Assembly: GCA_009922595.1 (NCBI GenBank)
Contig: RFVC01000002.1
Span: 1 to 64,000 of the forward strand
Direction of reading: 5' to 3'
DNA length: 64,000 nucleotides
Source of the DNA: Gammaproteobacteria bacterium
GTDB taxonomy: Bacteria; Pseudomonadota; Gammaproteobacteria; Pseudomonadales; Pseudohongiellaceae
Shown: piece by piece, positions 13,634-29,636 of the stretch
How the letters are laid out: every line of letters begins with the position of its first letter
How positions within the stretch are numbered: the stretch's first letter is position 1
Notes under the pieces: model-generated
Database searches by the model: none
What the model was told of the DNA's origin: nothing
Seen by the model: the letters and a program-made list of their open reading frames with translations, nothing else
Position numbers and translations under genes: made by a program

Positions 13634-13639
13634 TATAAT
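13634..13639 (+). promoter_or_regulatory. Candidate -10 box for the hydantoinase gene
   Basis: TATAAT sits 50 nt upstream of the chosen ATG at 13689 and overlaps the mutM leader region. The -35 match is poor. Confidence 0.35.
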
Positions 13640-13688
13640 GCTGCTGCTTGAAATGGCGGCAGGTAAACCAAATGGCTGGAGCAGTACC

Positions 13689-15695
13689 ATGATTCTGGGA
13701 GTTGATACAGGCGGCACATTCACCGACTTTGTCCTGCTGCGCTCTGTAAACAACGAAGAGGATGTCCAGCTCAGGGCCCATAAGGTGCTGTCTACTCCCC
13801 ATGCTCCGGAGGAGGCAATTCTACAGGGCATTCGGGAAATGGGTCTAGAGGATGCCGTCGACAAAGGGGATCTCATCATTGTGCATGGCAGTACCGTCGC
13901 TACCAATGCCGCACTTGAGGGTAAGGGGGCAACAACGGCCTTTATTACCAATACCGGTTTTCGGGATTTACTGACAATTGGCAGGCAAACCCGACCTGAA
14001 CTTTACCGGCTCGAAACACCGCCCATTCCACCGCCTGTACCAAGGGAGCTGTGTTTTGAAACAGCCGGGCGCCTGGACAGCCAGGGGCGGGAACTGGAAA
14101 AGGTGGATACGGAAATTCTGGACAGTGTCGTCAGGCTGGTTGCCGACCAAAAACCGCAGGCTATCGCCATAACACTACTGTTTTCATTCCTGGACAACAC
14201 CCACGAAAAGGAGGTTGCGGCTTACCTGGAAGAGCACCTCGATTACTCGCCCTTCATCAGCAGCTCACATGAAGTGCTGCCGGAATACCGGGAATATGAG
14301 CGCGGCATCGCCACTTGGCTGAACGCATCGTTGGGCCCATTAGTAAGCAGTTACTTACTTAGCTTGAAACGCAGTGTTTCCAAGTGCCGGCTTTCCATCA
14401 TGCAGTCAACTGGCGGCACAATAAGCGCAGACCAGGCCGCCATGAAGTCGGTTAATTTACTGCTTTCAGGCCCTGCCGGGGGACTGGCTGCAGCGGATTA
14501 CCTGGCCAGGCTTACAGGCAATCAGAAACTGATGACCTTTGATATGGGGGGAACCTCTACGGATGTAGCCCTCATGGACGGCGCTATTACGCTCACCAGT
14601 GAAGGGTATATTGGCAATTACCCGGTGGCCGTTCCGATGGTGGATATGCACACCATCGGGGCTGGCGGCGGTTCGATCGCCAGCCTGGATGCCGGCGGCC
14701 TTCTCCAGGTGGGTCCAAAGTCCGCCGGGGCCAGCCCTGGACCTGCCTGCTACGGAAAAGGTGGCAATAAAGCCACGGTTACAGATGCCAACCTGGTGCT
14801 TGGCAGGCTAATTCAGTCAGAATTTCTGGGCGGCGGCATGATCCTGGACCTCGACGCCGCCAGCGCTGCCATCCAGCCGCTGGCGAAAACCCTCGGGTTG
14901 AGCATTGAAGAGGCCGCGACAGGCATTATCCAGGTAGCAAATGAGCATATGGCCAGGGCGCTCAGGGTCATCTCGGTAGCGCGGGGCCACGATCCCCAGG
15001 ATTTCAGGTTGTGCTGTTTTGGAGGGGCCGGTGGGCTGCATATCTGCGCATTGGCCGATGCCATGGGCATGAAAAAGGCCATGGTGCCTGTGCATGGTGG
15101 CGTTCTCTCGGCCATGGGCATGTTCCTGGCGCCAGTACAACGCCAGCTGTCACTCACTCACCAGGCACCTTTAGTGGCCATTAAAGACGAGTCAATCGAT
15201 GCCATGTTTATAAGGCTCGAACAGAAAGGCTTGCAAGCGATTGAAAAAGAGGGCTTTTCTGTAGCAGAGTGCCATACTGAAAGAAGCCTGGACCTGCGTT
15301 ATACAGGACAGTCATCCTCGTTGAATGTCCCCTTCAACGCACGCCAGCAGGCCGTTGATGATTTCCATGCACTCCATGAACAGCGCTATGGACATCGCCT
15401 AGAGAGCCCGGTCGAGCTGGTCAATGTGCGTGTGGGAGTTAAAGAAAATAAAGCGCCGCCGACACTGGCCAGGCTTGACCAGGGAGCCGGCTCCTTGAGT
15501 CCCTCTAAAGAAAAGACAGTACATGGAATAAACGAAGCCGTAGCGTTAATTCACAGAAATGAACTGCTTGCAGGGGATTCATTTGATGGCCCCGCGCTGA
15601 TTTTGGAAACCAATGCCACCACCTGGATAGAACCGGGCTGGACCGTTGACTGTGATGAGTTTGGCAACCTGATGCTCACCAAGGCAATGGAATAA
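13689..15695 (+). CDS. Hydantoinase/oxoprolinase family protein (HyuA-like)
   Basis: A 668-residue ATP-dependent amidohydrolase subunit of the hydantoinase A/5-oxoprolinase family. The start at 13689 is preferred: it gives ILGVDTGGTFTDF, the actin-fold phosphate-1 loop, at the extreme N-terminus, and GGAG lies 8-9 nt upstream. A longer frame from 13638 lacks these. The second actin-like subdomain shows MTFDMGGTSTDVA and GPAGG. Such enzymes normally pair with a HyuB subunit, acetone carboxylase or N-methylhydantoinase partners; no partner is present here, so it is an orphan. Its substrate cannot be told from the sequence. Confidence 0.9.
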   Translation: MILGVDTGGTFTDFVLLRSVNNEEDVQLRAHKVLSTPHAPEEAILQGIREMGLEDAVDKGDLIIVHGSTVATNAALEGKGATTAFITNTGFRDLLTIGRQTRPELYRLETPPIPPPVPRELCFETAGRLDSQGRELEKVDTEILDSVVRLVADQKPQAIAITLLFSFLDNTHEKEVAAYLEEHLDYSPFISSSHEVLPEYREYERGIATWLNASLGPLVSSYLLSLKRSVSKCRLSIMQSTGGTISADQAAMKSVNLLLSGPAGGLAAADYLARLTGNQKLMTFDMGGTSTDVALMDGAITLTSEGYIGNYPVAVPMVDMHTIGAGGGSIASLDAGGLLQVGPKSAGASPGPACYGKGGNKATVTDANLVLGRLIQSEFLGGGMILDLDAASAAIQPLAKTLGLSIEEAATGIIQVANEHMARALRVISVARGHDPQDFRLCCFGGAGGLHICALADAMGMKKAMVPVHGGVLSAMGMFLAPVQRQLSLTHQAPLVAIKDESIDAMFIRLEQKGLQAIEKEGFSVAECHTERSLDLRYTGQSSSLNVPFNARQQAVDDFHALHEQRYGHRLESPVELVNVRVGVKENKAPPTLARLDQGAGSLSPSKEKTVHGINEAVALIHRNELLAGDSFDGPALILETNATTWIEPGWTVDCDEFGNLMLTKAME

Positions 15696-15953: not shown

Positions 15954-17021
15954 ATGAAGAACAAAGTCAAACAAGCACTGAAACAAACTTTGCGACTTCT
16001 GATTGGCATCTCTGCCATTATCCTGGCCGGCTGTCAGAGCACGTCCAGTTCCTCTTCGTCATCCTCGGCGCCGAGCATGCCAAGCTCAAGCTCTCCAAGT
16101 TCACCCAGCTCCGCACCGAGCATTCCAAGCTCATCTTCAAGTTCTCCCAGCTCTCCCAGCATGCCGAGCACATCTTCAGGAATGCCGAGCTCTTCGCCCA
16201 GTATGCCCAGTCAAAGCTCAAGTTCCTCAAGCTCCAACTCATCAAGCTCGAGCAGCTCCCAGTCGCAGAGTCAGCAGGCTGGACAGCAACAAGGTAGGCA
16301 GCAGTCATCCCAGGGCGGTTTCGAGTCATCTCCGCAGGTAGCCGGACAAAATGGTGCCGATTCTTCCAGCGCTCAGGGCTCCGGGGGACAACAGGCAGGT
16401 CATCAACAGGACGGACAGCAGTCGGGTGACGGAAGTTCATCTCCCCAGGTGGCAGGCAACGGTGGCTTTGAATCAGGCACCCAGGGCGGCAGCAATGGCC
16501 AGAACAGCGGCGTATTTGAAAGTTCAGGTGGCCAGGGCGGTGGCGATGATCCCTTTGCGGAACTGGAAGCCGGACGCGGCCAGGTAATGACCGCCGCAGA
16601 ACGCAGAGCAGCACTGGACGAGAGACTCAATGAAGGTTTTGCAGAATTCGATGGCATGATCCTGGGCGAACGTGAACGAGTCCAGGCCCAGGCAGACGAG
16701 GCTGGCAGTGACGTCATGGCTACCGGTGGCGGCGGCAGTGAAGGTGACGGTGAAAGCGGCAACTTTGAGCCACTGGTTATTGCCTCAGGCCCCGATGGTT
16801 CAACCGGCGGGGGTATCATGATTGGCGATGCCCGTCGGGAAGGCGAATTCAGCAATCAACAGGAAGAAACCTTCCCTGTTCCTGACGACATTCCGCCCGG
16901 TGCTAACGATGATGTCGTGGCAAGGCAGCTTCGCGAAGCTGCCATGAGTGAACCTGACCCCGAACTGCGAGAGGCGCTGTGGGATGAATACAGGGCTTAC
17001 ACGGGGCTCAGCACAGAGTAA
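15954..17021 (+). CDS. Serine-rich low-complexity lipoprotein
   Basis: A predicted outer-membrane lipoprotein of 355 residues and unknown function, first gene of the envelope cluster. The start is set at 15954 because MKNKVKQ begins a proper lipoprotein signal ending LAGC; a 33-nt longer frame from 15921 lacks this. After the lipid cysteine come about 80 residues made almost only of S, P, M and A, then a Q/G/S-rich stretch with repeats of GGFES and SSPQVAG. Then comes a charged segment (AAERRAALDERLNEGFAEFDG) and a conserved-looking C-terminus, VARQLREAAMSEPDPELREALW. The low-complexity part may be a flexible tether across the periplasm and the C-terminus the functional piece. This is inference. 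Confidence 0.82.
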   Translation: MKNKVKQALKQTLRLLIGISAIILAGCQSTSSSSSSSSAPSMPSSSSPSSPSSAPSIPSSSSSSPSSPSMPSTSSGMPSSSPSMPSQSSSSSSSNSSSSSSSQSQSQQAGQQQGRQQSSQGGFESSPQVAGQNGADSSSAQGSGGQQAGHQQDGQQSGDGSSSPQVAGNGGFESGTQGGSNGQNSGVFESSGGQGGGDDPFAELEAGRGQVMTAAERRAALDERLNEGFAEFDGMILGERERVQAQADEAGSDVMATGGGGSEGDGESGNFEPLVIASGPDGSTGGGIMIGDARREGEFSNQQEETFPVPDDIPPGANDDVVARQLREAAMSEPDPELREALWDEYRAYTGLSTE

Positions 17022-17131
17022 ATTTCACTTAATGACTACTTAATGGCAGCAATTTATTAGTAGTACAAAGAGCAATTAAATCCGTAAATACTGGCCGGCC
17101 AGAGCAGACAAGCAAAAACAAGGTACAAGGC

Positions 17132-18325
17132 ATGAACAAACTGATTCAATATGCACTCATCCTGATGTTAATGATGGGTGTCAGTGCTTGTGCTACACAA
17201 AACGTGAAAAGCACCACCTTCACTCCTATTGTCAGTGACAACGCCAGCACTCCCGAAGATGAACTGCTTGATATCGGGATAGCGATTTTCCAACCTGGGC
17301 TGGATGATATGCCGCGCAACCGGGAGGAACTGACCTTTTCCGATGTGCGCATGGCAGAAACCTACTTTACCTCCTATGAACTGGCCAATGCTCTACAAAA
17401 CAGCGGCAACTGGGGTGTTGTCAGGGTGGTCCCAGGCGATCTCTCTAGCTCAGATCTCGCGATAACCGGCACAATTTTGCAATCGGACGGCGAGACCATG
17501 CGCCTGCATATCAATATCAAGGACTCCACCGGGGTAACTTGGATAGATAAGGAGTACGAGGAAGTGGTCAGCAAGTTCAGCTACGACCCTCGCATGCGGC
17601 GCAGCGAAGATGCCTTCCAGGGATTGTTCAACAAGATCGCCAACGACCTGTACACCTTCAAGGAAAGCAATATTGAGCGGGAAGACACCCAGAGAATCAG
17701 GACCGTGTCTCAAATCCAGTTTGCCCGCAGCTTTGCCCCGCAGGTTTTTGACAGTTACCTCGAGGAAGGCCGCAATGGCATATTACAGCTGGCTCGCCTT
17801 CCCGCCGAGAATGATCCTATTCTGAACCGCATAGAAGATATTCGTGAACGCGACTTCCTGTACGTGGATGCCCTGCAGGATTACTACTCCAATTTCGTCC
17901 GCCAGATGCAGGTGCCCTACACCGAGTTCAGGCGCATGAGTTATGACGAGGTGATGAAAATGGACCGCCTTGCGGCAGATGCACGCCGCAACATGATCAT
18001 GGGTGTGGCAGCAATCATTGGCGGCCTGGCAGCGACCCAGAGCAACAACGCCACTGCCTACTGGTCGTCTCCGGTGATTCTTGCCAGCGGCGGGTGGCTG
18101 ATCAAGGATGCTTTTGCCAAGGGAGATGAGAGGCAGATGCACGTCGAAGCCCTTGCCGAGCTTGGCAACTCCCTGGAAATGGAAATTGCTCCCCAAACTA
18201 TCGAGCTGGAAGAAAGAACCATCACGCTTTCGGGCTCTGTTGAAGCCCAGTATGAGCAGTGGCGGGAACTGCTGGCTGACATTTATGCCAATGAAGTCGG
18301 GGAGGCAGAAAGCTCTGACCTCTAG
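17132..18325 (+). CDS. Hypothetical lipoprotein of the envelope cluster
   Basis: A 397-residue lipoprotein of unknown function. The signal ends VSAC, with A and T following the cysteine, which suggests outer-membrane sorting. The first domain (about 40-190) resembles periplasmic lipoproteins that build small alpha/beta folds (LLDIGIAIFQPG, LAITGTILQSDGETMRLHINI), a pattern like CsgG/LpoB-type N-terminal domains, though I cannot prove this. Residues about 290-335 hold two hydrophobic stretches around MIMGVAAIIGGLAA and SPVILASGGWLI that may insert in a membrane. It lies 110 nt after the serine-rich lipoprotein and 65 nt before the TPR gene, on the same strand. Confidence 0.85.
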   Translation: MNKLIQYALILMLMMGVSACATQNVKSTTFTPIVSDNASTPEDELLDIGIAIFQPGLDDMPRNREELTFSDVRMAETYFTSYELANALQNSGNWGVVRVVPGDLSSSDLAITGTILQSDGETMRLHINIKDSTGVTWIDKEYEEVVSKFSYDPRMRRSEDAFQGLFNKIANDLYTFKESNIEREDTQRIRTVSQIQFARSFAPQVFDSYLEEGRNGILQLARLPAENDPILNRIEDIRERDFLYVDALQDYYSNFVRQMQVPYTEFRRMSYDEVMKMDRLAADARRNMIMGVAAIIGGLAATQSNNATAYWSSPVILASGGWLIKDAFAKGDERQMHVEALAELGNSLEMEIAPQTIELEERTITLSGSVEAQYEQWRELLADIYANEVGEAESSDL

Positions 18326-18390
18326 TGCCGGCCGTATCACTGTAACTTAAGTGATGCCAGCAACTACCTGTTCCGGAGCAGCAGTTCACC

Positions 18391-19941
18391 ATGTCAGACT
18401 CAGAAAAAATCACTCCAGCGGACATCAATCTCTCCGCTGCGAAACCAGCTTCTGAACAATCCACAGAATCAGATGCGCCTGCACTTGGTGTCGAAGAGAT
18501 CAGGCGCTCTGACCTAGAGAAAAAGAAGCAGTCGCGGATCCTGGCCGGCATCTTTTTTCTTTTACTCGTGCTTGTTGGCGGCGTAATTTTCATCCTGCCG
18601 AAATTTATCTCACCGCCCGATCCTGCTGCCAGCAGGGTGGTTGTCGTCAACCAGCCGGTTGGTGCAGCCGCCCCTGCAAACCAGGTCTCACCTTTTGATG
18701 AAGCCCAGAAACTCCGGCAGAGGGAATCCGCGCAAAACGTTCTCGCCGAACTGCTTGATGTCCAGGAAACTCTCGAGGACAAGGAAGTAGAGGCGTGGGC
18801 ATCACTTGAATTCAACCGTGTATTTGAATTGGCCGAAATTGGTGATGAAGCTTACCGCGGACAGGAGTTCGTGACGGCCGAAGAATACTACCAGCAGGGT
18901 CTCGACATTTTGCTGTCGTTAGAGGCAAGCCTGCCCGATTTTTTTGCCGAATACATGGCCCAGGGAGACCAGGCCATCCTTGATGGCGACCCCGAGCTGG
19001 CTGAAGATTCTTTTAATATCGCCGTGCTGATAATGCCTGGCAACGACGAAGCCATTACCGGTTATGACCGGTCGCAGCAACTGGCCAAAGTTCTGGCCAT
19101 CATTGCCGAGGGCGAGGGGCTCCACGAAGCCGATGCCTTCGAGGAAGCCGCTGAAAAGTATCGTGAAGCGCTGGTTATAGATCCGGTTCATGTGGGCGCT
19201 AACGCCCTGCTGGAGCAGGCAAATACTGACATACTGGACCGCGACTTCTCTGCTGCAATGTCCCGTGGATTCGCCTCCCTGGGCGGCAACAATCCTGAAC
19301 AGGCGGAAAACGATTTTCGTGCGGCTCTGGCACTGAAACCCGAATCCCCTGAGGCCAATGCCGCACTTGAACAGACTATAAGCCAGATGACGCTGTCTGC
19401 CATCAACATACACCTTGATGCCGCGACCGGGTTCGAAAGTAATGAGCAGTGGCAGCAGGCGCTCAATGAGTATGATGCTGTACTGGTGATTGACCAGAAT
19501 CTGGTCACCGTTCGTGAAAAACGCAGAGGCGCAAACAGCCGTAACAACCTGGACAATTACCTGGAAACCATTAACAACGAACCTCTGAGACTGGCTGAAA
19601 GCAGCGTGTATCAGCAGGCCGTCGGCATCTACAACGAAGCCGTCAAAATTACTGGCAACTGGCCGCGATTGGACGGGCAGCTTGTCACGCTGAGAAGTTT
19701 CCTGGAGCGAGCCACTGAGCCGGTTGCCGTACGCCTGCAGTCTGACGGGCTGACCAGCGTCACTGTTTACCAGGTCGCCGAACTGGGCCAGTTCACCATC
19801 GAAACGCTGAACCTGACACCCGGCAGCTATGTTGCCGTCGGTGTGCGTGAGGGATACAGGGATGTCCGGGAAGAATTTATTGTCGGCTTTGATGGCCAGG
19901 CCCCAGTGATCACTGTTAAGTGCATGGAAGAGGTCCTTTAG
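18391..19941 (+). CDS. Membrane-anchored TPR protein with PEGA-like tail
   Basis: A 516-residue bitopic inner-membrane protein. A cytoplasmic N-terminus of about 47 residues, ending in the basic stretch EKKKQSR, is followed by one helix at about 49-70, placing the rest in the periplasm. Residues about 140-450 are tetratricopeptide-like repeats: AYRGQEFVTAEEYYQQGLDI, AILDGDPELAEDSFNIAVLI and HEADAFEEAAEKYREALVID are clear units. The last 70 residues (SGLT-like beta pattern ending VGVREGYRDVREEFIVGF) resemble a PEGA domain, as in the next protein. It is probably a scaffold in the envelope complex encoded around it. The next gene starts 18 nt downstream. Confidence 0.88.
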   Translation: MSDSEKITPADINLSAAKPASEQSTESDAPALGVEEIRRSDLEKKKQSRILAGIFFLLLVLVGGVIFILPKFISPPDPAASRVVVVNQPVGAAAPANQVSPFDEAQKLRQRESAQNVLAELLDVQETLEDKEVEAWASLEFNRVFELAEIGDEAYRGQEFVTAEEYYQQGLDILLSLEASLPDFFAEYMAQGDQAILDGDPELAEDSFNIAVLIMPGNDEAITGYDRSQQLAKVLAIIAEGEGLHEADAFEEAAEKYREALVIDPVHVGANALLEQANTDILDRDFSAAMSRGFASLGGNNPEQAENDFRAALALKPESPEANAALEQTISQMTLSAINIHLDAATGFESNEQWQQALNEYDAVLVIDQNLVTVREKRRGANSRNNLDNYLETINNEPLRLAESSVYQQAVGIYNEAVKITGNWPRLDGQLVTLRSFLERATEPVAVRLQSDGLTSVTVYQVAELGQFTIETLNLTPGSYVAVGVREGYRDVREEFIVGFDGQAPVITVKCMEEVL

Positions 19942-19959
19942 GGCTCGGCGGTACTTCCT

Positions 19960-22050
19960 ATGTCAGACGGAAAACTAAATACACCTGACAATGGCAACCG
20001 GGGTTTTGACGACCCCATAACACCAATCGATTTTACGCCGGTTGATGGTACCGAAAAAAAATTCAGCATTACCCTCAGCCCGGTCAAAATTGTCCTCTCT
20101 TTAATACTCCTGGTATTTGCTGGCGCGGCATGGTTTGTTCTGTCTGCACGCTCCGTATATCTGGATGTGAGACCTGGAACCAGTCTGGTCAGCGTCAATC
20201 ATCCAGTCACTGTGAAAATTGGAACGCGCTACCTTGTACTTGAAGGCGACCTGCCTATCACCGTCACATCTGAAGGTTATTACGATCTTGACACCACCCT
20301 GACCGTGACGGAGGAAGCGGCTCAGACTTTTCTCATCGAGATGCTGCCCCTACCTGGCATTTTTACCGTCAATACAGAGGGCTTAGAAGGCGCTTCTGTG
20401 GCAATCGATGGTGAGGTTGTCGGCACCACCCCTCTTGTAGATGTGGAAGTGGCTGCCGGCGAACATCTTGTTGAAATCTCGCTTGATCGCTACGAATCCT
20501 ATATCGATAACATTGTCATTGAAGGCCGCCAGACCCGTCAGGGCCTGGACGTTGAACTGCTGCCAGCCTGGGCCAACGTGGGATTTGCCACAACACCTGC
20601 CGGCGCCACTGTTACGGTCGACGGTTTTGATGTGGGACAGACACCACTGTTGACGGAAATTCTGGAAGGATCCCACGAAGTGCTGATCAAGTTGACCGCC
20701 CACAAAATCTGGACCGAAACCATCGACGTGCTGGCACGTGTGGACATGGTGGTTCCGACCATAACGCTGGAACAGGCCGATGGGCTGGTGCTGCTGCAGT
20801 CCACGCCATCGAACGCAAACGTTACTCTCGATGGCACCTTTGCCGGGCAGACACCTCTGGAATTTAGCGTGACGCCTAGCACAACCCATGAACTCACCTT
20901 TTTCCTGAACGGTTACGAGGAAACGCGCCGCACAATCACCACGCAGCCGGAGGAAGAAACTTCCCTTAATGTTACTCTTCAGCCGATCACGAGTTCCGTG
21001 GAAATCAGCGTTATACCAGCCGACGCCGAGCTGTTCGTGAATGGCGAGTTAATGGGCAATGCCAACCAGACTATCGATCTTATAGCGGCATCACAGATGC
21101 TGGAGATCAGGCGCGAGGGTTATGTCACCTACGAGACTGAATTTGTATCCAGGCCCGGGCTTGATCAGAAACTCGAAGTCACCCTGAAAACGCTTGAGCA
21201 GCAGCGCCTGGAAAATATCAAGCCTTTCATTACCAACGCCGCCGGCCAGACAATGAAACTGATTTACCCGTCCAGCTTTCAAATGGGGGCCTCCCGCCGC
21301 GAACCCGGGAGGCAGGCCAATGAGGCCATCAGGAATATCAGTCTGACCCGGCCTTTCTACATGTCCCTAATGGAAGTCAGTAATGCCCAGTTTGCCATGT
21401 TTGATGGCGAGCATTCCTCGGGGGTCGTTGAAGGCAGAACTCTCAGCAACAACAACCAGCCCGTTGTAAGGATTACGTGGGATCAGGCGGCACGTTTCTG
21501 CAACTGGCTCAGCGAACAGGAAGGGCTTCCAGCTTTTTATACCATCGAGGGTGATACCGTTACCGACTTTAACCCTGATAGCACTGGCTACCGTCTGCCT
21601 ACTGAGGCCGAATGGGCCTGGTCAGCGCGCGTTGAGGAAGACCCCAGCAGCCTGCTGAAATTTCCCTGGGGCGCGCAAATGCCGCCGCCTGCCAATCACG
21701 GCAACTACGCCGACATATCAGCAGGTGTATTCCTGGGCAGGATCATTGCCAACTATAACGACAGTTATCTCGGTACTGCCCCGATAGGCAGTTTCCCGCC
21801 GAACAGCAACGGATTTTTTGACATGGGCGGCAACGTGGCAGAGTGGGTGCATGATTACTATGGTGCCACTGGACAGATCGGCGGCCGTGAAGAGCTTGAC
21901 CCGCTCGGCCCAACCAATGGCACATACCATGTCATACGCGGTTCCAGCTGGGCGCATGGCACCCTGACGGAGCTGCGCCTCTCCTTCCGCGACTACAACA
22001 ATGAACCGCGCGATGACGTTGGCTTTCGTGTAGCGCGGTACCTTGAATAA
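19960..22050 (+). CDS. Membrane-anchored PEGA-repeat protein with formylglycine-generating-enzyme-like domain lacking the catalytic cysteines
   Basis: A 696-residue bitopic protein. One transmembrane helix lies at about 43-62. The periplasmic part has about five beta-rich PEGA-type repeats from residue 66 to 415; the signature is, for example, ATVTVDGFDVGQTPL and NVTLDGTFAGQTPLEF. Residues about 428-695 are a SUMF1/FGE-sulfatase fold, shown by FQMGASRREPG, YRLPTEAEWAWSAR, GFFDMGGNVAEWVHDYY and DVGFRVAR. In active formylglycine-generating enzymes two cysteines follow the RGGSW motif; here RGSSWAHG (from residue 660) has none, so oxidase activity is unlikely. It may act as a ligand-binding or structural module. 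Genes are tightly packed on both sides. Confidence 0.9.
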   Translation: MSDGKLNTPDNGNRGFDDPITPIDFTPVDGTEKKFSITLSPVKIVLSLILLVFAGAAWFVLSARSVYLDVRPGTSLVSVNHPVTVKIGTRYLVLEGDLPITVTSEGYYDLDTTLTVTEEAAQTFLIEMLPLPGIFTVNTEGLEGASVAIDGEVVGTTPLVDVEVAAGEHLVEISLDRYESYIDNIVIEGRQTRQGLDVELLPAWANVGFATTPAGATVTVDGFDVGQTPLLTEILEGSHEVLIKLTAHKIWTETIDVLARVDMVVPTITLEQADGLVLLQSTPSNANVTLDGTFAGQTPLEFSVTPSTTHELTFFLNGYEETRRTITTQPEEETSLNVTLQPITSSVEISVIPADAELFVNGELMGNANQTIDLIAASQMLEIRREGYVTYETEFVSRPGLDQKLEVTLKTLEQQRLENIKPFITNAAGQTMKLIYPSSFQMGASRREPGRQANEAIRNISLTRPFYMSLMEVSNAQFAMFDGEHSSGVVEGRTLSNNNQPVVRITWDQAARFCNWLSEQEGLPAFYTIEGDTVTDFNPDSTGYRLPTEAEWAWSARVEEDPSSLLKFPWGAQMPPPANHGNYADISAGVFLGRIIANYNDSYLGTAPIGSFPPNSNGFFDMGGNVAEWVHDYYGATGQIGGREELDPLGPTNGTYHVIRGSSWAHGTLTELRLSFRDYNNEPRDDVGFRVARYLE

Positions 22051-22060
22051 GGGTGAAGTC

Positions 22061-22303
22061 ATGACAGATCGACTGCTCATACTGGTTGCGCTTTTTCTTC
22101 CACTGCTGATTTCAGCGGCCGAAAAGGAATCCGCGCCCATAGAAACAGATGAAAGCACTGAAAATGAATTTCTGACTGAGCCCCTCGATGATGAAAGCCA
22201 GGAGCCGGTAGATGAAACCAGCGAAGTAGCGCGGGATGAAAATTTTGTTCCCACAATTCGCATTACCGAGGATCTGCCCGTGGCATTTCCCGTAGACATA
22301 TAA
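22061..22303 (+). CDS. Small acidic exported protein
   Basis: An 80-residue protein with a signal peptide (LLILVALFLPLLISAA) and a very acidic mature region (many E and D), ending in the hydrophobic motif PTIRITEDLPVAFPVDI. ATG at 22061 is preferred over an in-frame TTG at 22043: the TTG would overlap the previous gene, while AAGGGTGAAG precedes the ATG. No domain is recognised. Its place directly before the proton-channel gene suggests a small periplasmic partner or linker of the complex, possibly with the C-terminal segment as a binding peptide. This is inference. Confidence 0.75.
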   Translation: MTDRLLILVALFLPLLISAAEKESAPIETDESTENEFLTEPLDDESQEPVDETSEVARDENFVPTIRITEDLPVAFPVDI

Positions 22304-22328
22304 AGGATAAGCAGACAAGGCATTCCCT

Positions 22329-23147
22329 ATGAAACATCAAGGTATCGTTTCCGACCTCATATACCAGGTTTTTGCCCTGATCATCTCGGTGATCGTGGTG
22401 CACGCTGTCTACGTGGCGGTAATTCGTCCGGAGGCTGAGTCCTTCATCGAGCAGCAGGCAATACTGCAGGAAGCAGATCCCGAATATGTCGGTGAACGCT
22501 CGATCTATGTTGTCATGCGGGATTTCGAGCAGGAGACCTGTATCATCCTGATGCTCTGGGCGATGTCCATCATTGGTCTGAAGGTTTACCGCAACCGCAA
22601 TGAAAACCGGTTGCTGCAGCGCTCTCTGCTCAATCTTTCGGAGGGTATGAGCATTCTCCCAGAAGATGCGCGCGACTATGCGCGACCCGTGCAGGCACTT
22701 CCCACCGAGGAGCGCGAATTTTTATTGCCCAGAGCCCTGCTTGCCGCACTTCAGCGTTTCGGCTCGACACGTAACATTCCGGACGCTGCCAGCGTAATCA
22801 AGGATATCTGCAGTACCGAAGCTGAACGGTTAGAGAGCGAGTTGACCATCGTGCGCTACATTGCCTGGGCCATACCGTCCATCGGCTTCCTCGGCACAGT
22901 GCGTGGTATCGGTGAAGCACTTGGGCAGGCTCACCGTGCTGTCAGCGGCGATATTGTCGGCGTCACCATGAGTCTCGGGGTAGCCTTTAACTCTACTTTC
23001 ATTGCACTAGTGGTCAGCATCCTGATCATGTTCATGCTCTACCAACTTCAGCTTATGCAGGACCGGCTCGTGCTGGATACGCAGAACTACTGCGACAACT
23101 ACCTGATCAGACATCTGCAGGTTCCTGAGAAGGGTGACCTGGAATGA
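22329..23147 (+). CDS. MotA/TolQ/ExbB-type proton channel family protein
   Basis: A 272-residue inner-membrane protein with four predicted helices, at about 12-32, 70-86, 175-198 and 213-238. The conserved core of the family is present in the third helix, PSIGFLGTVRGIGEAL (183-198), which corresponds to the GLLGTVxGI motif of TolQ and ExbB, followed by a helix VTMSLGVAFNSTFIAL as in ExbB. Such proteins form pentameric channels that turn proton flow into movement of a partner dimer. No separate ExbD, TolR or MotB gene is nearby. The two VWA proteins just downstream have an ExbD-like N-terminal helix and are the likely partners. It overlaps the next gene by 4 nt. Confidence 0.9.
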   Translation: MKHQGIVSDLIYQVFALIISVIVVHAVYVAVIRPEAESFIEQQAILQEADPEYVGERSIYVVMRDFEQETCIILMLWAMSIIGLKVYRNRNENRLLQRSLLNLSEGMSILPEDARDYARPVQALPTEEREFLLPRALLAALQRFGSTRNIPDAASVIKDICSTEAERLESELTIVRYIAWAIPSIGFLGTVRGIGEALGQAHRAVSGDIVGVTMSLGVAFNSTFIALVVSILIMFMLYQLQLMQDRLVLDTQNYCDNYLIRHLQVPEKGDLE

Positions 23148-24466
23148 GCCTGCATATTATTGAGCTAAACGACCGCAATATAAGCCTGCGCAACCTGGAA
23201 AATGTTCTTGTGCAAAGTCCTGGCTTTGCCAACATTATCGACAAGGAGCCCGTATTCGGTGAAGAAGCCAGGAAAGTGGCAAGGCTACACCCCCGCCAGA
23301 CCTTTACCCAGTTCTGGTCACAGCTAAGCCTGGACCCACTGGTGAACAGCAACAACCATTTCCGCCACCAGGCTGACCTTGCCTTTGCCCATCTCAATGC
23401 CATTTCGAATGAGCACGCTTTAAAAGATGAAGTCATTTTTGCCGTCCCCAGCAATTACAACCGTAACCAGCTTTCCATTCTTTTGGGCCTGGTACAGTCC
23501 TGTGACTTTGATGCGGTAGGCTTGGTGGACATACCGCTGCTGGTTGTGGGATCAGCTGACGGCTCAGGTCAGGCCATTTATCTTGATATACAGCTGCACC
23601 AGACAGTACTGACGACATTTTCTCCCCAGGAAGGCAACACTGCGCGCGACAAGGTTATACAGATTCCCGGAACCGGGCTGATGGCACTGCATGATGCCTG
23701 GGCCAATATGGTGACGGATGAATTCATCAAGCAAAGCCGTTTTGATCCGCAGCATAATGCCGAGACAGAGCAGTATGTTTACAACCAGTTAGGCAACTGG
23801 ATAAACCAGTCGCTGCAAGACAACGAAATCCTCATGGAGATCAACAACAAGGGCTCCGTTTACCAGGCAAGGGTGAACAGAGGGCATTTTGAACAAAGGG
23901 TCAGGAGTATTTTTGGCCGGGTCAAAGAAGAACTGCAGACCCTGGCTGGCAGCAACTATACGCTGTTTCTGCCCGATGACCACGCCTCGCTTCCTGGCGT
24001 ATCCCTGTATCTCGACAATGTAAGCAAAGTGCAGGAAGGGCAGCTGCTGGAGAACTGCCAGAGGCATATGGACCAGATTCGCGGCGAGCCCGGCTCGCTG
24101 AGTTTTGTCACCAGCCTGCAGCTGGCAGGTTCGCCGGTTGCCAGCAGCGCACACAGGCCTGATTCAAAATCACCTTCTCATGTGCTGGTGAACAACCGCG
24201 CCTATGCCCTACCTGCCCACTTTCAGTATGGTCCCGTCAATGGCAGCGATTCAGCGGGCAAGGGCACCATCCAGGTAGAAGCCACCGGTAGCTCCGGCGA
24301 TCTGAAAATTTCGCAGGCTGAGGAAGGCGTGGTGCTTGTTGTCCAGGGCATTGGCCAGGTTCAGTTAAATGGTAGCAAAGCCGCCGCAAGGGAAAACCTC
24401 AAACTGGGTGACGTTATTCGTCTTCCCGGATCAGACACTGCACTTCAGTTAATCCAGGTCGAATAA
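23144..24466 (+). CDS. Divergent Hsp70/actin-like protein with FHA-like C-terminus
   Basis: A 440-residue protein without signal or membrane segment, so cytoplasmic. The N-terminal 250 residues follow the Hsp70 ATPase order loosely: FGEEARKVARLHPRQTF resembles the segment after the phosphate-1 loop, and EVIFAVPSNYNRNQLSILL resembles the AVITVPAYFNDxQR strand-helix. However, the phosphate-1 loop itself (ELNDRNISLRN) lacks the usual GT/S residues, so ATP binding is doubtful. The last 100 residues are beta-rich and end VQLNGSKAAARENLKLGDVIRL, a pattern of FHA-like domains. It overlaps the channel gene by 4 nt and precedes the first VWA gene by 3 nt, so a cytoplasmic regulator of the channel is plausible. 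Fold calls are tentative. Confidence 0.8.
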   Translation: MSLHIIELNDRNISLRNLENVLVQSPGFANIIDKEPVFGEEARKVARLHPRQTFTQFWSQLSLDPLVNSNNHFRHQADLAFAHLNAISNEHALKDEVIFAVPSNYNRNQLSILLGLVQSCDFDAVGLVDIPLLVVGSADGSGQAIYLDIQLHQTVLTTFSPQEGNTARDKVIQIPGTGLMALHDAWANMVTDEFIKQSRFDPQHNAETEQYVYNQLGNWINQSLQDNEILMEINNKGSVYQARVNRGHFEQRVRSIFGRVKEELQTLAGSNYTLFLPDDHASLPGVSLYLDNVSKVQEGQLLENCQRHMDQIRGEPGSLSFVTSLQLAGSPVASSAHRPDSKSPSHVLVNNRAYALPAHFQYGPVNGSDSAGKGTIQVEATGSSGDLKISQAEEGVVLVVQGIGQVQLNGSKAAARENLKLGDVIRLPGSDTALQLIQVE

Positions 24467-24469
24467 AGC

Positions 24470-25597
24470 ATGTCTGAGAGCAGGGCCGCCAAACGCGAGT
24501 TCAATCCAATCAGCCTGGCATTCCTGGATGTCATGTCTTGCGGGTTTGGTGCGGTTGTCCTGATCTTTCTAATTCTTGACCACTCAACCAGTATTCAAAA
24601 CAATGTCGCCAATCCCGAACTCGTTGCCGAGATCAGCCTGCTAAACGAGGAAATCAATGAAGGAGAAGCCAACCTGGTCCGCATCAGGAATACAATTTCC
24701 GATGTGGACTACCAGATGGTGGAAGCGCAGGGACTGGCCCGCTCCATTCAGCAGGAAATAGAGGACTTCCTGGAAGAGCTGGCGCAGCTGGAAAATACGA
24801 CATTGGCCAGAGAAGAAAGCGTTGAAAAACTTAAGGCGGACATAGAAAACCTTGAGGAGGAACTTGAGCGCCTCCGGGCCGCGCAGGACTCCTTCAGCGG
24901 CAATTTTGTTCGCCCCTTTGTCGGTGACGGCAACCGCCAGTACCTGACCGGGCTTATCCTGGGTGGCAGCCGCATACTGGTGCTGGTTGATACATCGGCC
25001 AGCATGCTTGATAACACCATCGTCAATATCATACGTCGCCGCAACATGTCCGACGACAGGAAGATCAGTTCGGATAAATGGGTGGGCGTCCGCAATATCG
25101 TGGACTGGCTGACAACACAGCTGCCCCCGCCCAGCCAGTACCAGCTTTACACATTTAACGAAGAAGTGGAGGCGCTGATCCCCGGGACAGAGGGCAGCTG
25201 GCTGGAAGTAGCCGATGACGTACAGCTCAATGATGCGGTGGATCGACTAGATAAACTGATTCCGGAAAATGGCACCAACCTCGAAAACGTTTTTCAGAGT
25301 GTTGCGGCCATGAACCCGCTTCCCGACAATATCTACCTGATTACTGACGGACTGCCAACACTTGGCAGCCGCCAGGGCAGTTTCTTAAACAGGAATAATA
25401 ACAGTAATGCCAACACGGTAACCGGACGAGAGCGCGAAGAGCTTTTCAAGAATGCGCTCACACAATTACCCTCGGGAATTCCGGTCAATGTCATCTTGGC
25501 TCCTCTCGAAGGGGATCCTATGGCGGCCTCTTTATACTGGAAACTTGCTGTCTCGACGGGCGGCTCCTACCTCAGTCCTTCAAGGGACTGGCCGTAA
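24470..25597 (+). CDS. Membrane-anchored VWA protein with ExbD/TolR-like N-terminal helix (first copy)
   Basis: A 375-residue protein. A short cytoplasmic N-terminus leads to one helix at about 14-36 that starts ISLAFLDVMSCGFGAVVL; the FLDVM pattern with D20 corresponds to the TPxxDVM helix of ExbD/TolR, whose aspartate carries protons. A coiled coil of about 90 residues follows (51-140). The rest is a von Willebrand factor A domain with a full MIDAS metal site: DTSAS at 174-178, T269 and D293 (ITDG). The topology puts the VWA domain in the periplasm. It is 3 nt after the Hsp70-like gene and 18 nt before a second VWA gene with the same plan. Likely moving partner of the upstream channel protein. 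Confidence 0.9.
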   Translation: MSESRAAKREFNPISLAFLDVMSCGFGAVVLIFLILDHSTSIQNNVANPELVAEISLLNEEINEGEANLVRIRNTISDVDYQMVEAQGLARSIQQEIEDFLEELAQLENTTLAREESVEKLKADIENLEEELERLRAAQDSFSGNFVRPFVGDGNRQYLTGLILGGSRILVLVDTSASMLDNTIVNIIRRRNMSDDRKISSDKWVGVRNIVDWLTTQLPPPSQYQLYTFNEEVEALIPGTEGSWLEVADDVQLNDAVDRLDKLIPENGTNLENVFQSVAAMNPLPDNIYLITDGLPTLGSRQGSFLNRNNNSNANTVTGREREELFKNALTQLPSGIPVNVILAPLEGDPMAASLYWKLAVSTGGSYLSPSRDWP

Positions 25598-25615
25598 GGA
25601 AGCGAATCTAAACTC

Positions 25616-26617
25616 ATGTCCAGGCGCACAACAGAAACTTTCAATATCTCGTTCCTTGATGTCATGTCCTGTGGTTTTGGGGCAATCATCCTGCTGCTCA
25701 TGATTACCAAGTCCTCTGCTCCGATACCGCTGGAAATTTCAGAAACGCCTGTTGAAGGCAGCGTCTTGGAGTTACAGCGTCAGCTTTTCGAAATTCGCGG
25801 AGAAACCAATATTCTAAACCGCGACCTGAATGCGAAGCATGAACAGCTGTCGCAGTATGAAGAGCGAATCGCACGTTTACGCCGAGAGCTGTCCACGCTG
25901 AACGGCCAGTTTAATTCCACCAACCAGCAGTCCACCGTCAACGACATCCTGGAAGGGCAGCTCGCTATCGCTAGGCAGCAGCTCACCGATGAAATGCGCC
26001 GCCTGCAGGCGAACATGGCAGAGCAGCAGCTGAATGACTCCGTGGGAGGCGTGCCAGTGGACAGCGAATACATCATCTTCATCATTGATACCTCGGGGAG
26101 TATGTTCAATTACTCATGGAACCGGATGCTCGAGGTAATGGTGGACACCCTGGATATCTATCCCGAGGTTAGAGGAATCCAGGTACTCAACGATATGGGC
26201 GAATACCTGTTTTCCAGTTTTCGAGGAGACTGGATTCCTGATACACCGGCTCGCCGGCAGGCAATCCTGCAGAGGCTGCGGACATGGAACCCCTTTAGTA
26301 ACTCCAGCCCCGTAGAGGGTATTACCAATGCCATTCGCACCTTTTATGACCCGGGCAAGAAAATCAGTATTTACGTGCTGGGCGACGAATTCCCACCTGC
26401 CAGCGGATCCATTCGTAATGTCATTGAGACCGTGGACCGCATTAATGTTGAGGATCAGGACGGCAATCGCCTCGTGAGAATCCACGGAATCGGTTTTCCC
26501 GTATATTTTTCACAGCCTGACCGATACCAGAGTACCGGCGAGCGTTTCGCCACCCTGATGCGCGAACTGGCCCGAAAAAACGGCGGTACTTTTGTAGGTT
26601 TGAATGATTTTTATTAG
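25616..26617 (+). CDS. Membrane-anchored VWA protein with ExbD/TolR-like N-terminal helix (second copy)
   Basis: A 333-residue protein with the same plan as its neighbour. The N-terminal helix, about residues 10-31, contains the identical 11-residue motif FLDVMSCGFGA (13-23, acidic residue D15). It is followed by a coiled coil (about 50-140) and a VWA domain with MIDAS start DTSGS at 158-162. Outside the anchor helix and MIDAS the two proteins differ, so they are old paralogues rather than a recent duplication, and may form a heterodimer on the pentameric channel. It ends the tight part of the cluster; the next gene is 129 nt away. Confidence 0.9.
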   Translation: MSRRTTETFNISFLDVMSCGFGAIILLLMITKSSAPIPLEISETPVEGSVLELQRQLFEIRGETNILNRDLNAKHEQLSQYEERIARLRRELSTLNGQFNSTNQQSTVNDILEGQLAIARQQLTDEMRRLQANMAEQQLNDSVGGVPVDSEYIIFIIDTSGSMFNYSWNRMLEVMVDTLDIYPEVRGIQVLNDMGEYLFSSFRGDWIPDTPARRQAILQRLRTWNPFSNSSPVEGITNAIRTFYDPGKKISIYVLGDEFPPASGSIRNVIETVDRINVEDQDGNRLVRIHGIGFPVYFSQPDRYQSTGERFATLMRELARKNGGTFVGLNDFY

Positions 26618-26746
26618 CATTTATGCGCCATTCAGCGTATTTATGTAAGCAGAAACTGGAGTAAACTATGTAGACGCTCTAGGGAAATCCCTGTTATTTT
26701 CAGGTCTTTTATCCCGCGGGAAGCCTACAAAACGCAGTGAGTTATT

Positions 26747-27421
26747 ATGAGCAGTACAATTTTTCACAAAACTGCAAATACCGCAGCTGAGCTGATCGGG
26801 TCATATTTCAGTCGTGCCGGCCTTGTCGTACTTGTAGCTCTGCTTACCGCCTGTTCAGCCACGGTGATTAATATTGAGGGATCTTTCCCTGCCCCCCTTG
26901 TTCAAAAAATACCGCTAACCATTGGCGTGATCTACGACGACGCTTTTTCCAACCATAGTTTTATCGAGATCAATGACACCACTGGCGATGACCAGTACAT
27001 TATAAATTCGGGGGCATCGCAGATTGCCCTTTTTAATACCATGCTGCCTGCAGTGTTCGAACAGGTTGTCCAGCTGGACAACATGGAAAGCGCTAGTAAC
27101 TATGGCGAGCTTGATGCTGTTTTTTTGCCGGCCATTGAGGAGTTTCAGGTTGGCCTGCCCCAGAAAACTCGATTGAACGTCTACGAAATCTGGGTCAAGT
27201 ACAACATGCGTCTTGCCAGGGCCAATGGCGATTATATCGCTGACTGGGTTATGACCGCCTACGGGAAGTCACCCGAGGAAACATTCCAGTCTGTAGATGC
27301 CGGCGTAAATGATGCCGCCAATGTCGCCCTGCGCGATCTTGCAGCAAGTTTTACGCTGGGGTTAAGTAACATTCCTGAAGTTAATGAGTGGCTGAGATCT
27401 GAAAACGTGCTGGGAGAATAA
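26747..27421 (+). CDS. Hypothetical lipoprotein
   Basis: A 224-residue predicted lipoprotein. An unusually long n-region (about 20 residues) precedes the hydrophobic AGLVVLVALLTAC lipobox. The mature part has an alternating pattern IPLTIGVIYDDAF and ends in an amphipathic helix. It is reminiscent of periplasmic lipoproteins of the GNA1162/LpoB-like kind, but I cannot assign a family. The 129-nt gap upstream may carry a separate promoter. It is followed at 40 nt by another lipoprotein, making a pair that may work with the envelope cluster. Confidence 0.82.
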   Translation: MSSTIFHKTANTAAELIGSYFSRAGLVVLVALLTACSATVINIEGSFPAPLVQKIPLTIGVIYDDAFSNHSFIEINDTTGDDQYIINSGASQIALFNTMLPAVFEQVVQLDNMESASNYGELDAVFLPAIEEFQVGLPQKTRLNVYEIWVKYNMRLARANGDYIADWVMTAYGKSPEETFQSVDAGVNDAANVALRDLAASFTLGLSNIPEVNEWLRSENVLGE

Positions 27422-27461
27422 GTCTTTTTCCCCCCGACGATTTGTTAACAGAACAAACACT

Positions 27462-28139
27462 ATGAACACAAAAGAATTTCTGAGACGATCTTTGCACATG
27501 CTGCTCGCTGTTTCGGCCGCCATCATTCTCAGCAGCTGCACCACGACCGAAATTGATGAGTTCAGACAAAGCGCCACTACCATCAACCAGGATGAAAGCA
27601 TCGTTATTCTTGGCAGGCGTCAGAACAACAATTACGAAACCGAGGAAAGCTTTGTCGGATGTGTGGCAGATGTTGTTTCAAGCGGCCAGAATTCGATTTC
27701 AGTAATCGATGAACGCGAATTTCTAGATGCCATGTTTCCCTTCTTTGAGCCTCGCACAGCACCTATGCGAACAGGCCACCTAGAACAGCTAATGGCTGTC
27801 GATGTCGCGGCTGAAAAAATGGAGGAGTTTGGTATCGAGTACATCGTGTGGCTTGACGGCATTACTGAGCGCTCTGATCAGTCCGGATCGATTTCATGCA
27901 CAATTGGGCCCGGCGGCGGGGGTTGCTTTGGCTTTGGTACCTGGACCGATGACTCTATCTACGAAGCTGAAATATGGGACATGGACACCCTGAGCTCTGT
28001 TGGCTCTATCAGTACTGAAGCTAACGGCCAGTCTTACATGCCTGCTGTGGTTGTGCCTATTCCGCTGATTGCCCGCGTTGAGGCTAATGCTTGTAGTGGG
28101 CTGGGAAACCAGCTAAAACAATTTATCAACGGCTCCTGA
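27462..28139 (+). CDS. Hypothetical lipoprotein
   Basis: A 225-residue predicted lipoprotein with lipobox LSSC followed by TTTEI. The mature region has strand patterns such as ESIVILGR and EYIVWLDGITER and a glycine loop between two cysteines (CTIGPGGGGC), suggesting a possible disulfide, plus other cysteines that fit periplasmic oxidation. The layout is loosely like CsgG/LpoB-type domains. The function is unknown. It sits between another lipoprotein and the M48 peptidase, all on the same strand with gaps under 50 nt. Confidence 0.82.
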   Translation: MNTKEFLRRSLHMLLAVSAAIILSSCTTTEIDEFRQSATTINQDESIVILGRRQNNNYETEESFVGCVADVVSSGQNSISVIDEREFLDAMFPFFEPRTAPMRTGHLEQLMAVDVAAEKMEEFGIEYIVWLDGITERSDQSGSISCTIGPGGGGCFGFGTWTDDSIYEAEIWDMDTLSSVGSISTEANGQSYMPAVVVPIPLIARVEANACSGLGNQLKQFINGS

Positions 28140-28187
28140 GCCAAATAGTTCATGCTTAATTAAGCTTTTTCCCATTAGGATGGCCCT

Positions 28188-29636
28188 ATGAAAAGCTTGT
28201 CTTTCCCGCTGACAATTCCCACAGTACTTAAACCGGCAGTGACACTATTCCTAGTCACTACTTTTCTTGTTGCCTGCGCGAGCAATCCAACCGGCGGGGC
28301 CAACTTTGTACTCATGTCCGAAAATGCCGAGATTGAAAAAGGCAGGGAGCTGCATGAGGAAATGCTTCAGCAGAACCCAATCTACCAAGATGGTGAATTA
28401 CAGGCCTATGTCGACCGGATTGGCAAAAAAATGGCTGCCGTCTCTCATAGGCCTGAACTGGATTATGTTTTTACAATAATAGACAGCCCGGACATTAATG
28501 CATTCGCGCTCCCGGGCGGGTACGTCTATATCAATCGCGGACTGATGACATACCTGAATTCCGAGGCACAGCTAGCCGCCGTGCTGGGTCATGAAATTGG
28601 TCACATCACGGCACGGCATGCCGTCAGACAGCAGACTGCATCAAGAACCGCTAACGCGGCTTCCATTGCCCTTATCTTTGCAACCGGTGTGGACATGCGT
28701 GAAACAACCAGCCTCATCAGCGGCGCCCTGATCAGCGGCTACGGCCGTGAAATGGAACTGGAAGCTGACAGTCTGGGCGCCGAGTACCTGTTCAATGCAG
28801 GTTATGACCCGAATGCCATGGTAGAGGTAATCGAGGTTCTGAAAAACCACGAAGACTTTACCAAGAGAACATCAAACAGGACGGCAGTCGCCTACCACGG
28901 GCTCTTTGCCTCTCACCCCAGGAACGATACCAGACTGAAAGAAGTAGTTGGCAAGGCCGGCACTTTATCGGAACAGCAGTCAGGCTCTGAAGACCCCTCC
29001 CTATTCCGTGATCAGATGACAGGCCTTATTATTGGTCCGAGCCCTCAAAATGCTGCAGGGGGTGACCAGCGCAACCGTTATTACCAGAACCTTTTCAACT
29101 ACACCCTGATTTTCCCGGAGGGCTGGGCTAGGCAGGAAACAACAACGACTGTCACTGGTACCAGCATGGACCAGGCAAGTCATATCAGGGTCGAGGGTCG
29201 GCGTCTGCAGCAAGCCAAAGAAGCGCGTCTGTATATACGTGAGGACCTGGGTATACCCGACCTGCGGCAATCAGAGCCACTATCCCAGTTTGGCTTGGCA
29301 GGCTTCACTGGTATTAATCCCGCCAACAATGAACGTATCGCCGTACTCTATTATGGCCCTCGTGCTTTCGTGATCTCGGGAAAGGCCAGTGAGGAATTTC
29401 CTGACGACACTCTGATGGAGTCAATTCGCAGCTTCAGGCCTATTGCTCGAAATGAAACGCTCTTTGCAAACCCTGTGCAGATTACCTACATCCAGGCAGA
29501 CGGCAGAGTGACCTATGCGGATCTTGCAAGACAGTCACGCCTTCCTGAACACCAGGAAGACATGCTTCGACTGCTCAATGGCGACTATCCTTTTGGCGAA
29601 CCCGATGAGGGTGAGTGGATAAAAATAGCAAACTAA
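28188..29636 (+). CDS. M48-family metallopeptidase lipoprotein (BepA/LoiP-like)
   Basis: A 482-residue zinc endopeptidase. The signal ends LVAC (C30), so it is a lipoprotein facing the periplasm. The zinc site is H135-E-I-G-H139, with the third ligand in MELEADSLGAEY (about 190). The upstream INAFALPGGYVYINRGLM is the typical M48 substrate-strand motif. Family members BepA, LoiP and YcaL degrade or help to assemble outer-membrane proteins. The C-terminal 200 residues are not TPRs as in BepA but a beta-rich region of unknown role. It is the last gene of the same-strand run and could provide quality control for the cluster. Confidence 0.93.
   Translation: MKSLSFPLTIPTVLKPAVTLFLVTTFLVACASNPTGGANFVLMSENAEIEKGRELHEEMLQQNPIYQDGELQAYVDRIGKKMAAVSHRPELDYVFTIIDSPDINAFALPGGYVYINRGLMTYLNSEAQLAAVLGHEIGHITARHAVRQQTASRTANAASIALIFATGVDMRETTSLISGALISGYGREMELEADSLGAEYLFNAGYDPNAMVEVIEVLKNHEDFTKRTSNRTAVAYHGLFASHPRNDTRLKEVVGKAGTLSEQQSGSEDPSLFRDQMTGLIIGPSPQNAAGGDQRNRYYQNLFNYTLIFPEGWARQETTTTVTGTSMDQASHIRVEGRRLQQAKEARLYIREDLGIPDLRQSEPLSQFGLAGFTGINPANNERIAVLYYGPRAFVISGKASEEFPDDTLMESIRSFRPIARNETLFANPVQITYIQADGRVTYADLARQSRLPEHQEDMLRLLNGDYPFGEPDEGEWIKIAN

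Follow-up and report, generated by a model that had tools for sequence, protein, structure and literature searches.

A gammaproteobacterial gene cluster for a probable ion-driven envelope motor with an asymmetric pair of VWA proteins

A gene cluster at positions 15954-29636 of a 64,000-nucleotide stretch of DNA from a gammaproteobacterium of the family Pseudohongiellaceae (assembly GCA_009922595.1, contig RFVC01000002.1; this whole stretch is hereafter the window) raises the question of what a MotA/TolQ/ExbB-type channel may drive when it is encoded beside two VWA proteins and not beside an ExbD or TolR. Flagella, gliding, iron uptake, type IX secretion and cell division all depend on motors of the 5:2 type. 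The cluster, whose genes are here numbered g01 to g12, probably encodes another ion-driven 5:2-type envelope motor of the inner membrane, the axle of which would be an asymmetric pair of VWA proteins and the load of which, in Proteobacteria, would lie at the outer membrane. If so, it is a further kind of 5:2 motor, one whose axle is an unequal pair and for which no experimentally examined function was found. The original prediction, made from the DNA letters, had described twelve same-strand genes, and all twelve open reading frames are found on the + strand at the coordinates given below.

The channel-like protein, g06 (22329..23147), scores 50.5 bits against the Pfam family MotA_ExbB, for which the cut-off is 22.9. 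In a gap-free but weak profile alignment (E 0.094), off which the residue numbers were counted, its T190 falls on T145 and its T223 on T178 of TolQ, two threonines that we take to line the TolQ pore. All 50 of the 50 relatives compared keep both threonines; the set includes the window protein, to which the identity of the others goes down to 34%. A hydropathy scan finds helices at residues 14-32, 69-87 and 218-236, and the conserved stretch 180-198, which is aligned to TolQ, was counted as a fourth helix though it fails that scan; we infer a MotA-like four-helix layout. The claim that no ExbD or TolR gene accompanies the cluster holds for contig C2, which carries the locus in the host assembly (2.64 Mb, 307 contigs) and has no ExbD match. 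The four ExbD matches of the genome are on contigs C125, C275, C47 and C280. Other channels of the host genome adjoin ExbD on C275, C47 and C280, and one channel, cut by the end of C12, is not judgeable. The ExbD on C125 (L022, G000:C125:20933-21310) lies on a contig without any channel match.

The two proteins thought to fill the partner slot are VWA1 (g08, 24470..25597) and VWA2 (g09, 25616..26617). VWA1 matches Pfam VWA_2 at 29 bits; VWA2 is below the Pfam cut-off (VWA_2, 15 bits), aligns to VWA1 along 254 columns with an hhalign probability of 99.5% (E 3e-23) and carries an invariant DxSxS motif. Each starts with a transmembrane helix, FLDVMSCGFGAVVLIFLI in VWA1 and FLDVMSCGFGAIILLLMI in VWA2, in which the F and the D are invariant and the C and G nearly so. 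The transmembrane aspartate is D20 in VWA1, found in 53 of 53 relatives (a 54th row is a fragment missing that part), and D15 in VWA2 (52/52), and the relatives counted reach down to 28-29% identity with the window proteins. This invariance suits the slot to which the two proteins had been assigned. Examples of the corresponding stretch in ExbD proteins from this genome are TPMLDVVFILLIFF and VPLIDVMLVLLIVF, in which an Asp takes the place equivalent to that of the VWA helices; an SHLS motif was not found in the N-terminal helices of the two VWA proteins of the window. The statistics do not support homology between this helix and ExbD, and that idea was rejected; the resemblance is retained only at the level of motif and position and, as neither profile comparison nor Pfam shows significant homology, may be convergent.

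Each transmembrane helix is followed by a predicted coiled coil about 95 residues long, recognized through matches to SMC-type models (residues ~45-140 in VWA1), and then by a VWA head; the VWA2 profile, compared with PDB sequences, finds matches in the stalk only. In VWA2 the metal-site residues D158, S160, S162, S230 and D257 are each kept in 52 of 52 rows, with Ser in the place of Thr. The metal site of VWA1 is complete in the window, but among the aligned relatives an Asp stands at position D174 in 41 of 53 rows and a Thr at T269 in 38 of 54. Because the site is invariant in VWA2 and apparently eroding in VWA1, the two heads appear to differ, VWA2 being the likelier metal-dependent gripper.

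Gene linkage was followed across 55 loci, namely the window, 15 relatives and 39 loci from whole genomes, some of them on short contigs and with the near-duplicates L014/L015 and L068/L069 kept. The nearest named relatives of the host genome belong to the Gammaproteobacteria. Since all 55 loci were retrieved via VWA1 or VWA2, only the linkage of the other genes is informative. The channel is present in 50 loci, g07 in 39, the TPR gene (g03) in 36, g04 in 35, g05 in 31, g01 and g02 in 28 each, the M48 gene (g12) in 22, g10 in 19 and g11 in 18. Five loci of a second phylum enter into the TPR and M48 counts, although in them these genes are a few kb off, with the TPR gene on the opposite strand. 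In these five (L060, L062, L064, L066 and L067), an M48 gene and a divergent TPR gene a few kb past VWA2 echo g12 and g03. In all 51 loci with both VWA genes, the labelled gene that follows VWA1 is VWA2, the largest gap between open frames being 146 nucleotides (nt), and the channel is directly ahead of VWA1, or of g07 and VWA1, in 48 of 50. The two exceptions are L011, where the channel lies upstream on the opposite strand (519-1388) with the remaining operon in order, and L044, where it follows VWA2. The exact order of twelve genes is kept in 15 of the 55 loci, window included, and a 16th has all twelve in a changed order; because the full order recurs this often, the cluster is beyond chance. 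In L019 (Kiritimatiellota B12222), the channel, g07, VWA1 and VWA2 stand alone in a row, with their nearest neighbors on the opposite strand. No ExbD match was found near the channel in 54 of the 55 loci, a search that did not extend to MotB; the sole match, in L017, is on the opposite strand about 6 kb past the M48 gene, so that the supposed lack of a standard ExbD/TolR beside the channel extends well beyond the window.

The same families go together in whole genomes, as had been expected. Among 274 genomes of the class, with the starting genomes included in this and all other genome counts, the VWA profiles match 20, 18 of them by a full-length VWA2 and two by the start of VWA1 at contig ends, and the channel profile matches 25, of which 20 score at least 242 bits and five score 75-97 bits. 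The 20 genomes with a strong channel are the same 20 that have the VWA proteins (Fisher 9e-31, ignoring relatedness) when a 240-bit line is drawn post hoc in the gap between 97 and 242 bits; without that line the agreement is 20 of 25. In other samples, the system occurs in 16 of 398 genomes of the phylum, 13 of them from one family, and in 17 of 288 genomes of the phylum of L019. Distance correlations among the channel, VWA1 and VWA2 are 0.88-0.91, for which relatedness alone could suffice, and those with g07 are 0.60-0.72. In trees of these four proteins, the L019 group joins Proteobacteria in some, with mixed support, and lateral transfer of its system is not claimed.

The fourth member of the linked set, g07 (23144..24466), has no Pfam match and is predicted to be a cytoplasmic pseudo-Hsp70. 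Its AlphaFold2 model, built with 15 sequences, has a confidence score (pLDDT) of 86, and residues 1-311 match the Hsp70 nucleotide-binding domain (2v7y, Z 26.0, root-mean-square deviation 3.0, 309 residues aligned); the top Foldseek match is a chain of the RAC complex with the Hsp70 Ssz1 (E 4e-16). The phosphate loops of Hsp70 follow the patterns DLGTT and GGGT, and the first is found in none and the second in one of 39 g07 sequences. Having the Hsp70 fold without these loops, g07 resembles a switch or scaffold. The fold comparison covered residues 1-320, and the C-terminal β domain beyond them is FHA-like: the relative in L020 passes the Pfam FHA cut-off (25.9 bits, 1.3e-5) and the window member is below it. 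Among PDB sequences, the g07 profile finds ribosomal protein L17 at 0.042 and, over the tail, the kinesin-like KIF13B at 0.44. Taken together, g07 looks like an Hsp70 nucleotide-domain fold with degenerate phosphate loops and an FHA-like tail. In each of its 39 loci, g07 lies upstream of VWA1 with no other labelled gene between them, the open frames are no more than 21 nt apart, and this adjacency holds even where the channel is relocated (L011 and L044).

The five channels scoring 75-97 bits belong to sister systems. In L078 (6078-12443) and L079 (3125-7750), the channel is near FHA, PP2C and trypsin-FHA genes and a single VWA protein that begins with the transmembrane sequence SALDLFASAxGAFILI; the VWA match in L078 has 26.7 bits against a cut-off of 27, and the VWA1 profile scores 36 and 18 bits against the two proteins, respectively. 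The 3.9-kb L080 (205-2692) holds a channel, FHA and PP2C, and the 3.2-kb L077 (1433-2588) holds a channel and an open reading frame that by eye reads like FHA. In L081, a trypsin-FHA gene adjoins a channel match that the open reading frame filter left unlabelled. The contents of these loci show a simpler layout, with one VWA protein and separate FHA and PP2C proteins.

These features bring up a signalling or gating device, in which the VWA heads would sense envelope stress and the channel and g07 would relay it inward by phospho-recognition. The FHA-like tail seen in L020, the company that sister channels keep with FHA and PP2C proteins and the switch-like character of g07 all speak for such a device. 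However, the aspartate and the two threonines, described as the energy-coupling residues of known motors in a June 2025 paper in Molecular Biology and Evolution (PMC12204202), are kept in all relatives examined, and the long stalks and outer-membrane lipoproteins suit force transfer. As a replacement for the motor, signalling is thus improbable, while remaining the best of the rivals; the two are compatible, and both can hold.

The remaining genes face the envelope. Pfam recognizes g03 (18391..19941) as a TPR protein, bitopic with a transmembrane segment at residues 50-68 by transmembrane scan, and g04 (19960..22050) as a bitopic protein (transmembrane segment 44-62) with four PEGA repeats and an FGE-sulfatase (SUMF1/FGE-like) domain. 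This SUMF1 domain is closest to NCBIfam GldK (E 2e-29, below its cut-off). Catalytic FGE/SUMF1 proteins have their active-site cysteines close to the C-terminus, and no Cys occurs in the last 120 residues of g04 in 33 of 36 rows, one of the 33 being a fragment. The small acidic exported protein g05 (22061..22303, 80 residues) is read from ATG 22061, with TTG 22043 as a possible alternative start. Lipoboxes taken directly from the sequence bear out the four lipoproteins of the original prediction: the Ser-rich low-complexity g01 (15954..17021; LAGC, +2 Q), which has no Pfam family, g02 (17132..18325; VSAC, +2 A), g10 (26747..27421; LTAC, +2 S) and g11 (27462..28139; LSSC, +2 T). The M48 metallopeptidase g12 (28188..29636; Pfam M48 132 bits, motif HEIGH) is likewise a lipoprotein (+2 A), related to BepA and LoiP, and matches NCBIfam BepA at E 2e-35, below the equivalog cut-off. 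The residue that follows the lipobox Cys in the five lipoproteins is, in gene order, Q, A, S, T and A; under the enterobacterial +2 rule, all five are expected in the outer membrane. The predicted protein kinds are thus upheld, by Pfam for the TPR, PEGA/SUMF1, channel, VWA1 and M48 proteins, by hhalign for VWA2 and by model fold for g07.

The AlphaFold2 model of g02 (pLDDT 72) has a first domain that matches FlgT (3w1e, Z 10.8, root-mean-square deviation 4.3 over 135 residues), PelC (5t11, 10.6), CsgG (6l7a, 9.8) and the N-terminal domain of TolB (7mx5, 9.2), and its top Foldseek match is TolB (E 2e-3). FlgT and TolB each act beside 5:2 motors. Between two long helices that follow, a Gly/Ala-rich hydrophobic stretch of very low model confidence (window 17984-18106, residues ~285-325) is possibly a membrane-inserting part. 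A fold common to g02, g10 and g11 was considered; the profiles of g10 and g11, like those of g02 and g10, align in the signal peptides only, which speaks neither for nor against it. In the PDB sequence search, the g02 and g11 profiles give chance-like or no matches and g10 gives one match at 0.75.

The likeness of the SUMF1 domain to GldK of type IX secretion, the several outer-membrane lipoproteins and the resemblance of g02 to CsgG and PelC could also indicate that the motor serves export instead of upkeep, as part of a type IX-like system for secretion or surface assembly. Such a system seems quite unlikely, as no outer-membrane translocon is recognized among the twelve genes in Pfam scans and the stand-alone set of L019 has no obvious secretion genes adjoining, judged from the list of open reading frames. 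Slightly less credit still can be given to the idea that the channel pairs with an ordinary ExbD or TolR encoded elsewhere and the VWA genes are mere neighbors: ExbD genes exist on other contigs, of which C125 is free of a channel match, yet the 20 genomes out of 274 that have this channel are exactly those with the VWA genes, the aspartate of the VWA helix is invariant, and the other channels of the host adjoin ExbD on C275, C47 and C280 as g06 does not.

A role in defense was also considered. In conflict systems, vWA, Hsp70, FHA and PEGA are described by PMC7159879, the main text of which does not mention ExbD or MotA; vWA does not appear in PMC12905483. PADLOC, run on six proteins, returned only ZorA at 14.5 bits on the channel and otherwise mostly matches to the VWA stalks. 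Zorya was likewise rejected, ZorA having only that score and ZorB having no match among the six proteins scanned. The weak PADLOC matches and the flanks of the cluster, which look like housekeeping genes (presumably coaD, mutM, ubiX, coaBC and argB), led us to reject the defense reading.

In the motor that we propose, g06 would form the channel ring of a 5:2 motor like those of the MotAB, ExbBD, TolQR and GldLM type, and the transmembrane helices of VWA1 and VWA2 would pair as a heterodimer into an asymmetric two-helix axle, each aspartate facing the threonines of the ring, and ion flow would drive rotation. By way of the coiled coils (~95 residues, ~14 nm if helical), both VWA heads would reach across the periplasm, and there VWA2 may grip an acidic partner with its metal site. 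On the cytoplasmic side, g07 would serve with its FHA-like tail as a platform or switch. In Proteobacteria, the receivers of the force would be the two bitopic proteins, TPR and PEGA-SUMF1, together with outer-membrane lipoproteins, g02 first. As the periplasmic domain of GldM, part of a known 5:2 motor of gliding bacteria, contacts GldK according to PMC8986121, the GldK-like domain of g04 has a precedent as a motor partner. The load is placed at the outer membrane because of this contact, the GldK likeness of g04, the fold of g02 and the action of FlgT and TolB beside motors. As to the cellular role, our guess is outer-membrane or surface upkeep. What the analysis shows directly is the linkage and co-occurrence of the genes, the invariant motor residues, the predicted g07 fold and the fold match for the first domain of g02; the stoichiometry, ion flow, rotation, heterodimer, contacts and role are inferred.

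A bolder version of this motor, which we hold to be speculative and on balance doubtful, would have an obligately asymmetric axle with VWA2 as a metal-dependent clutch and VWA1 as a support arm, a cytoplasmic gate made of a nucleotide-free Hsp70 fold and a phosphopeptide-type FHA module, a link to a ring of FlgT/CsgG-type lipoproteins in the outer membrane, and simpler one-VWA sisters with separate FHA and PP2C proteins. If the latter were true, phosphorylation would be a general switch of these motors.

Several results weigh against the motor proposed here. The N-terminal helices of the VWA proteins, compared with the four ExbD proteins of the same genome, reach hhalign values of 8% and 0.7%, which are not significant, Pfam sees no ExbD in them, and the profile E-value that links g06 to TolQ is weak. 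Not every locus has the accessory genes (g02 is present in 28, g07 in 39 and g12 in 22 of 55), and the FHA-like tail exceeds the Pfam cut-off in only one of 15 g07 members. Five loci are without the channel: two, L021 and L063, are at contig ends, and in L012 it is missing from its usual place, the upstream part being cut off. The VWA pair of G213 (L047) is on a contig other than that of its channel, and in G435 (L058) one contig has the channel plus a VWA start while VWA2 is on another. The distribution is patchy, too; in the order of the window one other genome has the system and at least 20 genomes are without it, a sparseness that suggests frequent gain or loss. Finally, no phenotype, and no description of such a system beyond that of PMC12204202, was found in the literature covered, with preprints and most subscription papers outside it.

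At the locus itself, the gaps from g01 to g12 are 110, 65, 18, 10, 25, -4, 3, 18, 129, 40 and 48 nt, counted with ATG 22061 as the start of g05. The core predicted at 18391-26617, with gaps of 65 nt or less and one 4-nt overlap, is exact by this count. Directly upstream, at 13638-15695, is what we take to be a hydantoinase/oxoprolinase-like gene. Sigma-70 patterns between 15600 and 30200 number 9 against a mean of 9.9 and terminator patterns 16 against 14.4; both are at chance level, and therefore no transcript boundary can be claimed.

How new is such a motor? The original prediction knew of no described function for the combination, and none was found here; the core motor idea has been in print since June 2025. 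PMC12204202 predicts heterologous vWA pairs encoded beside tolQ without tolR, with a helix that bears a conserved Asp inserted into the pentamer, and places these TPH-vWA/TolQ-like force transducers in Proteobacteria and Verrucomicrobia. It also reports AlphaFold 3 models of vWA helices in the pentamer, by their description seemingly for the same family as that of the window, which fits the description of its second vWA family. The function of its first vWA family is given as unknown, and its TPR gene is linked to the vWA family other than that of the window. Judged by the published description, the assignment of the cluster to the kind predicted in 2025 is well supported, and the core idea is not new. 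The main text of the paper, figures and supplements aside, is without the words Hsp70, SUMF, M48, MIDAS and PEGA. The present analysis adds to that text the g07 subunit, the apparently asymmetric metal sites, the g02 lipoprotein of the FlgT/PelC/CsgG/TolB type and the sisters with one VWA protein, FHA and PP2C. With exact residues and a cultured carrier, Microbulbifer thermotolerans DSM 19189 (locus L017), the role of the published vWA motors becomes directly testable; locus L014 is that of Pseudohongiella sp. O18.

Among known systems, the cluster shares most with the TPH-vWA systems as far as the text of PMC12204202 describes them, namely a TolQ-like channel without TolR or ExbD, two unlike vWA proteins, a transmembrane Asp and a threonine ring. 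Residues 1-311 of g07 share the fold of the nucleotide-binding domain of Hsp70 (DnaK), whereas the phosphate loops are degenerate and an FHA-like domain replaces the substrate-binding domain. The first domain of g02 shares, with moderate model confidence, the fold of FlgT, PelC, CsgG and the N-terminal domain of TolB, and unlike in these a long helical part follows. With GldLM-GldKN of type IX secretion, the cluster has in common a 5:2-type motor with a SUMF1-like envelope partner, although the SUMF1 domain here is part of a bitopic protein with PEGA repeats and no type IX translocon gene is recognized in the cluster. With the TolQR, ExbBD and MotAB 5:2 motors, it shares the pore threonines, the axle aspartate and a bitopic partner with a periplasmic part, but in contrast to these motors the axle here would be an unequal pair that ends in VWA heads on coiled coils, joined to a channel that probably has four helices like MotA.

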